A stretch of 64,000 bases of DNA from Arthrobacter sp. Hiyo8. GTDB lineage: Bacteria; Actinomycetota; Actinomycetes; Actinomycetales; Micrococcaceae. Under the pieces are notes generated by a model. The model was not told where the DNA came from. It searched no databases and saw only the letters and a program-made list of their open reading frames with translations. Both the position numbers and the translations under genes were made by a program. Location: assembly GCA_001549895.1 (NCBI GenBank), contig AP014719.1:2790001-2854000 (forward strand), written 5' to 3'. Positions 37,727 through 45,650 of this stretch are shown in pieces (the first letter of the stretch is position 1; every line of letters starts with the position of its first letter).

Positions 37727-37754
37727 CGTCCGGTAAAGGATCGGCTAACGGGCA
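37727..37754. repeat. Palindromic intergenic element, copy E
   Basis: CGTCCGGTAAAGGATCGGCT followed by AACGGGCA, 60 bp after the stop of paralog 2. Its first 16 bases match copy D. Confidence 0.6.
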
Positions 37755-41797: not shown

Positions 41798-41908
41798 GAC
41801 GGAACCCACGCAAGCTGGAGAAATAACCCGGGCACCGCCGTCGTTGTCGCAAGAGTGGCCGGGAAACCGGCCCCTGAACGAAACCACCTTCGAAAGGCCG
41901 GCACCAAC

Positions 41909-43012: not shown

Positions 43013-45650
43013 ATGGCTACTCCGCTCAATTTGTCCGTGGCCGATTCGGCACTGCTGACAAAATCGCTTCCGCTGGGTCTCCTGCGGACGGCAGTCCAAT
43101 CCGAGGCCGCGCACGATGGAATCACTCCGGAGCTGCTCGCGGAACTGAGGATGCTGGCCCGCACTCCGGGACTCCTGGTGGCCTGCAACTACGGTGGAAC
43201 ACTCTGCGCCGCGGAAGGCGTATCCACTGAGACACTCCCGTTGGGGAGTGCCGCCGTCGCTCTCCGGGCACTGGCAGCGCTGCCGAACACGCACACTGCC
43301 GTCATCTCCGGCAGGTCGCTGCGGGACCTTGCCGCAGTGTCGCGGCTGCCGGCGGAAGTCCACTTGGTGGGCTCGCACGGCGCCGAGTTCGACATGACCT
43401 ACGCGTACAGCATCTCGATGGCCACGGAAGCCGTCCTTCAACAGGCAGCCACGGCCCTCAACGAATCCATTGGCTTCGAAAAGGGCATCAGCATCGAGCG
43501 CAAGCCCGTGGCGGTAGCCATCCACACCCGGCCGGCCACGCCTGCCGTGGTCGCCAGGGTGACCCGGGAGGCGCACCAGATCGCCCGTGAAGTGGGACTG
43601 TTTTTCATTGTGGACGGATCCGTTCTGGACCTGTCCATCGTGGAACCCTCCAAAGACGCCGCGCTGGAGCATCTGCGTACACAGTTGGGGGCCAGCGCGG
43701 CCCTGTTTGCCGGCGACGCGGACAGCGATGAGCTCGCGATCGCCACCTTGCGGGGCCCGGATCTTGGCCTGCACGTAGGGGATGGAGAAACCAAGGCGCG
43801 CCACCGCTTGCCGGACCCGCAATCCTTCGCCAAAGTGCTCGCCATCCTGTTCGAACTGCGCCGAGCGTGGCTGTTCGGCGAGGACGCAGTGGGGCTGGAG
43901 CGGCATTCGATGATCGGTAACGGGACCTCGACGGCGCTGCTCACCCCGGAGGCCAAGATCTGCTGGATGAGCCATCCCCTCCCGGATTCAGGGTCCTTGT
44001 TCGCGCACATCCTGGGTGGAGACCCGGCCGGCCACTTCAGTGTGGAACCGGTCAAGGCGTCGAAGGTGCTGGGCCAGCGCTACGTGGACAACACCATGAT
44101 CGTGGAGACGCGCTGGGCGGACGTCACGGTCACCGACTACCTTGAGCCGGCACCGGACGGCATCACCAGCCTGGTCCGTGTCCTCTCCGGAACCGGCAGC
44201 GCGCGGATTGTTTTCGCCCCGCGGCCGGACTACGCCAACGCTCCGTTCAACATGGAGATCCGCGGCGAAGAACTGCACGTCGTGGGCACCTCGGATCCCA
44301 TCATCCTGTTCGCCCCCGGAGTGTCCTTCACAGTCACGAGCGACGGCAAGCACGGAACCGCCACCGCTGAAGTCAGCCTCGCGTACGGTCCTATCGTCAT
44401 GAACCTGAGGTGCGGAGACACTGAGCCGACGACGCCGGACCCCGCCGGAGAGCTTGCCCGGCGGGCCGCCGTCGCGCACCAATCCCGGCAGTGGGTCCGT
44501 GGGCTGGAACTGCCCGACATGAAACCTTCGTTGGTGCGGCGCTCGGCACTGGTCCTCAAGGCGCTGGTGCACGAGCCGACCGGGCCGTCCTCGCGGCTCC
44601 AACCACGTCGCTGCCGGAAGGGATCGGCGGCACCCGCAACTGGGACTACCGCTACTGCTGGCTCCGCGACGGCTCCATGACGGTCAATGCGCTCGTGGAC
44701 CTGGGTTCCACCGAGGAGGCAGACGGGTTCCTCCGCTGGCTGGGCCGCATCCTGGAGAACGCGCCCGGGCCGGAATGGCTGCACCCCTGTACTCCGTGAC
44801 CGGCTCCCCGTTGTCCACCGAGGCAATTATCGAGAGCCTGCCCGGTTACGCCGGCTCACGGCCCGTGCGGATCGGGAACGCCGCCGACCACCAAGTGCAG
44901 CTGGACGTCTTCGGCCCGATCGCCGAACTCATCCAGACCCTCAGCAGGCGCCGCGGCACGCTGCCGGACGAGCACTGGCAGCTCATGGAACAGATGGCGT
45001 CCGCCGTGCTGGCCCGCTGGCACGAACCTGACCATGGCATCTGGGAAGCCCGGCGCGCGCCGCGGCACCACATTTACACCAAGGTGATGTGCTGGGTGAC
45101 GCTGGACCGGGCCATGCACACGGCGGTCCGGTTCCGACGCCCCATCGGGGCCGAGTGGGAGGAAACGGCAAACATCATCCGCTCGGAGGTCCTCCGGGAG
45201 GGCTGGGATGATTCCGCGAGCTCCTACACCGTGGCCTACGACAGCCCCGACCTGGACGCGGCCGTTCTGCACATCGGACTTTCAGGCCTGCTGGACGTCC
45301 GCGACCAGCGCTTCCTGGACACCGTCACCGCCGTCGAGCGGGAACTGCGGGTGGGTCCCACCGTGTTCCGGTACAGGTACGACGACGGCCTGCCGGGTTT
45401 GGAGGGCGGGTTCCACATCTGCACCACCTGGCTGATTGAGGCGTACCTCGCCGTGGGCCGACTGGACGACGCGCTGGAGTTGTTCAACCAGCTCGTGGCG
45501 CTCTTCGGTCCGACCGGGCTGCTTCCGGAGGAGTTCGACCCCGGCACGGAAACCCACTTGGGAAACCACCCGCAGGCGTATTCGCATTTGGGTTTCATCC
45601 GCTGCGCGCAGCTCCTGGACAGGTACCTGGACTCGGTGGACGAGGAGTAG
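43013..45650 (+). CDS. OtsB-like HAD domain fused to GH15 glycosidase (two frameshifts)
   Basis: Reconstructed length 879 residues. Residues 45-285 resemble trehalose-6-phosphate phosphatase: AVISGRSLRDL (motif II), VEPSKDAALE (Lys, motif III) and LFAGDADSDELAI (motif IV). Motif I, expected DxDGT, reads NYGGT at 59-63, so both catalytic aspartates are absent. Residues 295-870 form a GH15 domain: SMIGNGTSTALLTPEAKICW, GTRNWDYRYCWLRDGSM, LVDLGSTEEADGFLRWLGRI and GLLPEEFDPGTETHLGNHPQ, with Glu residues placed as in GH15 glucoamylases and trehalases. Single bases are missing near 44592 (GGG) and 44773 (CCCC). Probable role: trehalose or glucan turnover, the HAD part being structural or regulatory. 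Confidence 0.85.

Follow-up and report, generated by a model that had tools for sequence, protein, structure and literature searches.

A catalytically inactive-looking trehalose-6-phosphate phosphatase domain fused to a trehalase-like GH15 enzyme in Arthrobacter and its family

Introduction

Trehalose-6-phosphate (T6P) phosphatases (TPPs, or OtsB; TIGR00685, PF02358; structures 5gvx, 6upb, and 1u02) consist of a haloacid dehalogenase (HAD) core and a cap. In the TPP of B. malayi, Mg is reported to be held by the first Asp of motif I, the main chain of the second, and two Asp residues of motif IV, while the Thr of motif II and the Lys of motif III are presumed to bind phosphate, and replacement of either motif I Asp is reported to leave no detectable activity (PMC4081830). 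The subject of this report is a gene of Arthrobacter sp. Hiyo8, located in a stretch of 64,000 nucleotides (contig AP014719.1, positions 2,790,001 to 2,854,000 of the forward strand; hereafter the window), whose product joins a TPP-like domain to a TREH_N domain and a GH15 enzyme. The fused domain shares with OtsB/TPP the overall fold, the core and cap, the Ser of motif II, the Lys of motif III, two Asp of motif IV, and the cap pattern ExK...HxR. It differs in carrying Asn and Gly in place of the motif I Asp pair and Ala in place of D236, and in scoring below the TIGR00685 cut-off. Judged from these residues, phosphatase catalysis has almost certainly been lost, and the domain probably works as a sensor or switch instead.

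TPP domains without catalytic residues were noted in 2006 in fungal Tps3/Tsl1 and in some plant trehalose-6-phosphate synthase (TPS) proteins, some of them regulatory (PMC1769515). Tps3/Tsl1 likewise keep, within trehalose enzymes, a TPP domain that lacks the conserved catalytic positions, but their partner is a TPS-like domain in the synthase complex, whereas here the partner is GH15 and the hosts are bacteria. The GT20 domain of TPS is absent from the Pfam matches of L034, an intact homolog of the Hiyo8 protein, in which only the TPP, TREH_N, and GH15 domains are matched. The OtsB1 type of mycobacteria also places a TPP domain within a larger protein, as here, and OtsB1 of M. tuberculosis (Rv2006) is reported to be without TPP activity (PMC11046441). 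Three long open reading frames (ORFs) of genome G606 (L128, L129, and L130; 1387-1457 amino acids), taken by their size to be of the OtsB1 type, keep DFDGT in motif I, unlike the protein described here. No description of a dead bacterial TPP fused to GH15 was recognized in the open literature, as covered through titles and abstracts and with most subscription journals outside that coverage.

Catalytic Motifs of the Fused Domain

An earlier note, made from the letters of the window alone, had read motif I of the domain as NYGGT and concluded that nucleophile and general acid/base are both gone. The motif is indeed present, and its occurrence throughout the clade supports the double loss at the level of sequence. 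The same note had motifs II, III, and IV remaining, which holds for motif II (S99-G-R) and motif III (K214) but not for motif IV, where GDDxTDE has become GDADSDE. The change of D236 to Ala, within the pattern GDAxSD, is found in every one of the family's 39 fused rows, counting the window copy, with D235 and D239 kept; these two are equated with the Mg ligands of the B. malayi enzyme by motif pattern rather than by direct alignment. In terms of the features of an active TPP, motif II Ser/Thr and motif III Lys are present, and both DxDx[TV] in motif I and GDDxxDE in motif IV are missing. The TIGR00685 cut-off of 68.05 is reached neither by the window copy (59.5 bits) nor by L034 (60.0 bits), and it is exceeded by two homologs with the same fusion and intact motifs (124.8 and 79.2 bits).

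Against a reference set of 34 active TPPs (15 fused, 14 unfused from the family, and five from family f22), in which 32 alignment positions are invariant, the proteins carrying NYGGT (termed dead below) keep 26 of the 32 in at least 90% of their 39 rows. The positions lost are D59 (to N), D61 (to G), D236 (to A), G201 (to D), P66 (kept in 1/39), and E162 (kept in 32/39), and thus include three catalytic or metal-site Asp; the Lys/Arg at position 202, beside G201, is also gone. Kept are S99 and R101 of motif II, K214 of motif III, D235 and D239, and K164, H171, and R173 of the cap. Among polar positions, 15 of the 19 that are invariant in active TPPs are kept, compared with 27 of 87 other polar positions of the domain that are invariant (Fisher p 1.8e-4, to be read only as a guide, as the 19 were picked for conservation and the rows share ancestry), which favors preservation of a putative binding site. 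In seven dead loci the cap residue E162 is Val (L048, L049, L052, L053, L007, L009, and L012); the five of these that are present in the tree described below form one clade, and the replacement is possibly a second step of change in the pocket.

The assignment to the TPP fold is supported by both profile and structure. Pfam places Trehalose_PPase (PF02358) at residues 60-240 of the window ORF with 47.2 bits (E 1.9e-12), and the matches of the window copy and L034 (47-49 bits) lie above the cut-off of 27. An AlphaFold2 model of the isolated domain, built with 24 close sequences, reached a predicted local distance difference test (pLDDT) score of 71, and 12 of its 13 best Foldseek matches in the PDB were T6P phosphatases. 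The match at rank 12 was 5hus, the C-terminal domain of the trehalose synthase regulatory protein of C. albicans, which we take to be of the Tps3/Tsl1 type. Lower in the list stood structures of a different HAD nucleotidase carrying the D172N mutation and bound to inosine monophosphate (6rme), which fits the use of D-to-N changes for substrate trapping. A phmmer search of the PDB with the TREH_N-GH15 part gave no match at E up to 1e-5, and a search with a full-length profile gave TPPs only, at E up to 0.001.

Distribution and Sequence Constraint

Alignment of motif I over the fused homologs, as the earlier note had proposed, returned NYGGT in each of the family's 38 other fused loci, the family being taken as that of Arthrobacter (Micrococcaceae). 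Of these loci, 15 come from a sample of family genomes and 23 from named Arthrobacter or Paenarthrobacter contigs; the TPP domains of L014 and L056 do not differ, so that these two loci probably represent a single genome, while the remaining rows are distinct. Such agreement is beyond chance and bears out the impression that the motif is real. Since the refuting evidence named in that note was the existence of orthologs with intact DxDGT, it is relevant that these were encountered only outside the family (27/27 inspected loci and a protein of Nocardia farcinica), with 0/38 inside; the intact homologs show the ancestral state and do not refute a loss within the family. Unfused OtsB proteins have D-F-D-G-[TV], as seen in 14 family members with loci and in the otsB of the Hiyo8 genome itself, the inspected set being completed by the genes beside otsA in genomes bearing the dead domain. 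The fusion is carried by 16 of the 197 sampled family genomes; the genus of the window, represented by 12 genomes, accounts for 10 of the 16. The searches were queried with the TPP domain, alone or as one part of a longer query, so that family members that had lost it would be missed or uncounted in these figures.

Residues N59, Y60, G61, G62, T63, and A236 are invariant in 39/39 dead rows, although the codons beneath them vary, with AAC and AAT for N59, all four Gly codons for G61, and all four Ala codons for A236. The codon comparison, like the substitution ratios and the GH15 residue counts given below, used 28 of the 38 dead loci. NYGGT as the product of recent decay is ruled out by this synonymous variation beneath a motif shared by 38/38 loci. 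Median pairwise ratios of nonsynonymous to synonymous substitution (dN/dS) in the dead set are 0.18 for TPP, 0.12 for TREH_N, and 0.10 for GH15, which are rough values with dS near 1 (324-352 of 378 pairs passed the dS filter). The intact fused set gave 0.58, 0.50, and 0.29, respectively, but is saturated and does not allow comparison with the dead set. Sequence thus supports retention of the dead domain and most of its binding residues under purifying selection, and it strongly supports the fusion of a catalytically dead TPP to GH15 as a clade-wide feature.

Origin of the Dead Clade

The dead-domain profile was run against two sets of 396 genomes each, one drawn from the order and the other from the phylum. 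Outside the family, a further genus of the order (f6/g37) gave long-frame matches in 32 genomes, and families f22 and f23 together gave them in four; all 27 fused loci inspected there have DYDGT and GDD. For f6/g37, motifs were inspected in 23 of the 32 genomes, and GH15 was established by alignment in 11 and inferred in the others from frames of at least 887 amino acids. A fused protein of Nocardia farcinica, reached through plasmid records, has DYDGT and GDDVTDE. Fifteen intact proteins aligned end to end as TPP-TREH_N-GH15, and the intact fused proteins of f6/g37, f22, f23, and N. farcinica have the same domain order as L034, with about 51-54% identity to it over most of the length. They share the GH15 Glu pair with the dead proteins but differ from them in keeping the TPP motifs.

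In a tree of 63 TPP domains (10 near-duplicate dead rows omitted; midpoint root, for drawing only), the dead rows form one clade (100/100), which joins the intact fused clade of f6 (99/94) and then the fused row of f23 (100/100). Since the dead clade is joined to intact fused proteins, it is most likely that the loss of catalysis came after fusion and occurred once in the sampled data, a bifunctional enzyme having lost its phosphatase chemistry and retained the domain since. Sequence supports a single loss of D59, D61, and D236 that predates the divergence of the Arthrobacter family members sampled; repeated separate losses were considered and are unsupported, as the tree has a single dead clade. 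Three fused rows of f22 fall among unfused OtsB. With the fused proteins not all together and the root placed at the midpoint, it is possible that some lines have lost the fusion itself or that it arose repeatedly.

Two f22 genes for a short, unfused TPP (L120 and L122) have neighbors in common with the fused f22 genes L106 and L107, so that a single locus occurs in both forms, with the GH15 part present or absent. Between TPP and TREH_N lies a joining segment with residues that are not found in unfused OtsB: W286 and G289 are present in 39/39 dead rows and in 14/15 intact fused ones, L287 in 39/39 and 13/15, and F288 in 39/39 and 10/15.

The Attached GH15 Enzyme

Both TREH_N and GH15 are present together with the Glu pair, placing the C-terminal part in the trehalase-like class of GH15. 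The pair (Glu679 and Glu840 of L034) is invariant in 28/28 dead and 15/15 intact fused proteins; the roles of general acid and general base, respectively, are presumed from the GH15 family. Among NCBIfam models, the best matches of the TREH_N-GH15 part are the archaeal trehalases TreH1 (355 bits) and TreH2 (296 bits), followed at a distance by oligosaccharide amylase (59 bits); both trehalase matches fall short of the equivalog cut-offs. GH15 trehalases have been reported in Mycobacterium, Microvirga, and archaea (PMC10969515). The attached enzyme is probably one that cleaves trehalose, as far as profile matches allow. The Hiyo8 genome has two further TREH_N matches, and 31 of 40 listed plasmid rows match the TREH_N-GH15 part only, without a TPP match.

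An arrangement of separate genes is seen in Sulfitobacter, where an intact otsB (DLDGT) lies 45 bases upstream of a GH15 gene on the same strand and otsA is located some 2 kb from them on the opposite strand. Plasmids of this genus with otsB and GH15 side by side are listed in eight records (L132, 3818-6388). The pair is possibly the unfused counterpart of the fusion, differing in its separate genes and intact OtsB motif, and it speaks for a functional connection between the two activities in general.

Stand-Alone otsB Genes and Gene Neighborhood

In 15/15 tested genomes bearing the dead domain, exactly one further PF02358 match was found, adjoining otsA. Its motif I (D-F-D-G-[TV]), motif IV, and cap are intact in 14 of the 15; in the remaining genome (G009, L104), motifs I and IV are intact. 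Within the window's genus, two genomes that lack the fusion have only the stand-alone otsB. The f6 genomes carry the intact fused protein as well as one or more further PF02358 matches, which indicates that a second otsB did not by itself cause the catalytic loss.

In G787 (L106) and G828 (L108) of f22, the fused domain is the only PF02358 match and otsA is present; in G757 (L105), the fused TPP match, with intact motifs, and an otsA match are encoded on one strand, about 60 bases apart, and another PF02358 gene and another otsA are found elsewhere in this genome. The intact fused form is thus probably a working phosphatase, and the L105 locus is an apparent otsA-[otsB-GH15] operon coupling trehalose synthesis to the hydrolase. 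In G787 and G828, the sole otsB product is tied to a trehalase-like domain.

Comparison of 44 loci gave no functional clue among the gene neighbors. The commonest upstream and downstream neighbors were grouped in at least 17 and at least 20 of the 44 loci, respectively, some having been missed by the ORF picker. By eye, they are taken to be a luciferase-like flavin oxidoreductase (upstream) and an AEC-type transporter (downstream).

Layout of the Hiyo8 Gene

The features of the gene are collected in Table 1. Compared with four relatives (DNA identity 90-94%), the window copy has two one-base deletions, and Pfam finds its GH15 domain split between two further frames. The homolog L034, 98% identical, is one open frame of 879 amino acids (PF19291, 293 bits; PF00723, 193.8 bits), and the protein is likewise a single frame in other homologs. 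The errors are thus deletions and not substitutions, and the domains are fused in frame once repaired, both as the earlier note had it; its TPP-GH15 fusion stands as well, with the addition of the TREH_N domain between the two, which had gone unmentioned. The deletions are probably a general fault of the Hiyo8 assembly. The stand-alone otsB of the genome (C1:1800227-1800798) and its second GH15 gene (C1:382082-383059) are likewise interrupted by frame changes, and between positions 37738 and 52634 of the window there are more one-base gaps relative to close relatives (e.g., near 41873, 47011, 48123, 49675, and 51895), which may break other genes.

Table 1. Features of the fused gene, in window positions; residue numbers are those of the window ORF unless L034 is named.
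Feature	Position	Strand	Basis or occurrence
ORF with TPP-like domain, TREH_N, and start of GH15; cut off early by a one-base deletion	43013..44680	+	
TPP-like HAD domain, predicted pseudophosphatase, residues ~31-280	43103..43852	+	PF02358, AlphaFold2 model, Foldseek
Motif I NYGGT, residues 59-63, replacing DxDG[TVC]	43187..43201	+	
Motif II S99-G100-R101, kept	43307..43315	+	39/39 dead rows, 34/34 active rows
Cap strand E162-R-K164 ... H171-T-R173	43496..43531	+	K164 39/39, H171 39/39, R173 38/39, E162 32/39
D201-G202, where active TPPs have G-[KR]	43613..43618	+	
Motif III K214, kept	43652..43654	+	39/39
Motif IV GDADSDE, residues 234-240; D235 and D239 kept, D236 to Ala	43712..43732	+	
TREH_N (PF19291), residues 281-489	43853..44479	+	Pfam, 292.9 bits
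One-base deletion no. 1 relative to relatives	44581..44586	+	
GH15 catalytic domain (PF00723), across frame changes	44584..45608	+	Pfam; intact L034 193.8 bits
One-base deletion no. 2 relative to relatives	44783..44787	+	
GH15 Glu in GIWE (Glu679 of L034), presumed general acid	45045..45047	+	28/28 dead, 15/15 intact fused
GH15 Glu in LLPEE (Glu840 of L034), presumed general base	45528..45530	+	28/28 dead, 15/15 intact fused

Proposed Function and Alternatives

The evidence points most directly to a T6P-binding pseudophosphatase that would regulate the attached GH15 enzyme, a reading to which we give about even weight. It gains indirect support from the kept residues of the phosphate and sugar sites, from the separate intact otsB, and from the response of T6P to stress in an Arthrobacter. 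In strain A3, T6P has been estimated at about 2 mM, about 40% lower 3 h after salt; it promotes self-assembly of OtsA, and cell shape and salt stress are tied to its level (PMC5685639). A sensor would therefore have a signal to read. In the proposed mechanism, the cap would still close on T6P, or on a close sugar phosphate, without hydrolysis, the Asn at position 59 having the effect of a substrate-trapping mutation; whether the cap is open or closed would be relayed through TREH_N to GH15, and breakdown of trehalose would thereby track the level of T6P. The sign of the effect is a guess that tips only slightly toward activation: T6P would turn the hydrolase on in growing cells, and its drop on osmotic stress would turn the hydrolase off, letting trehalose build up. 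The fuller version of this proposal, a bacterial T6P receptor in which a former phosphatase domain traps T6P uncleaved and allosterically gates a covalently attached GH15 trehalase, is more tentative, and we hold it a little below even.

Several points weigh against regulation by T6P. The pocket is not wholly intact, as the metal site is changed, with loss of the first Mg ligand D59, and G201, the Lys/Arg at 202, and in seven rows E162 are replaced; the residues that are kept may serve the fold instead. All dead rows stem from one event, and invariance over 39 rows does not amount to 39 independent observations. The full-length AlphaFold2 model (pLDDT 54) is too poor for interdomain contacts, and the recurring neighbor genes do not, by eye, resemble trehalose genes. 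The match of 355 bits to the trehalase equivalog NF041084, an archaeal model, is far below its cut-off of 820; intact fused homologs score 338 and 331 bits. Finally, the T6P measurements come from a strain outside the genomes checked for the fusion.

The strongest rival is that the domain binds no ligand and serves as a structural or oligomerization module for the folding or stability of TREH_N-GH15. The fusion to an intact TPP outside the clade means that GH15 may have become dependent on the domain, and both the joining-segment residues 286-289, common to dead and most intact fused proteins and not to unfused OtsB, and the partial dismantling of the Mg site fit such a role. However, S99, K164, H171, R173, and K214 are kept where those of a mere scaffold should drift, and TREH_N-GH15 without a TPP match is common among the listed plasmid rows; we consider this explanation unlikely. 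The changes at D59, D61, D236, G201, and 202, together with E162V, could also have re-tuned specificity toward another ligand, such as trehalose, glucose 6-phosphate, inorganic phosphate, or UDP-glucose, but retention of the Lys, His, and Arg typical of TPP caps and of the motif II and III residues renders this a still poorer candidate.

Slow neutral decay of a phosphatase made redundant by the stand-alone otsB, leaving a domain with no present function, would agree with the second intact otsB of all 15 dead-bearing genomes tested and with the somewhat higher dN/dS of TPP than of GH15. It is difficult to reconcile with synonymous turnover beneath an invariant NYGGT and A236 or with the 26 of 32 key positions kept, and it appears very improbable among family members reached by searches whose query included the TPP domain. 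As for a sequencing or assembly artefact, one-base deletions do occur at the gene in this assembly, but the remaining 38 fused loci carry identical residues, and 23 of these loci belong to different, named records, which rules it out for practical purposes.

Implications

The occurrence of intact fused enzymes in one clade and dead ones in another offers a clean comparison of the states before and after catalytic loss. The finding may also bear on annotation. The GH15 list of Arthrobacter sp. PAMC25564 includes a gene named "Trehalose-6-phosphate phosphatase, EC 3.1.3.12" at 943180-945807, of 2628 nt (PMC8171050). This corresponds to 875 amino acids plus a stop codon, the length of the fusion in several relatives, which suggests that the gene is this fusion; if so, models of trehalose synthesis count a phosphatase unable to work, and the annotation may need correcting. 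A T6P receptor of the kind proposed, if true, would tie trehalose breakdown to its biosynthetic intermediate in organisms where T6P is a reported signal of osmotic stress, and, given the tie of T6P to cell shape and salt stress in an Arthrobacter, a trehalase that reads T6P would be a testable missing link.

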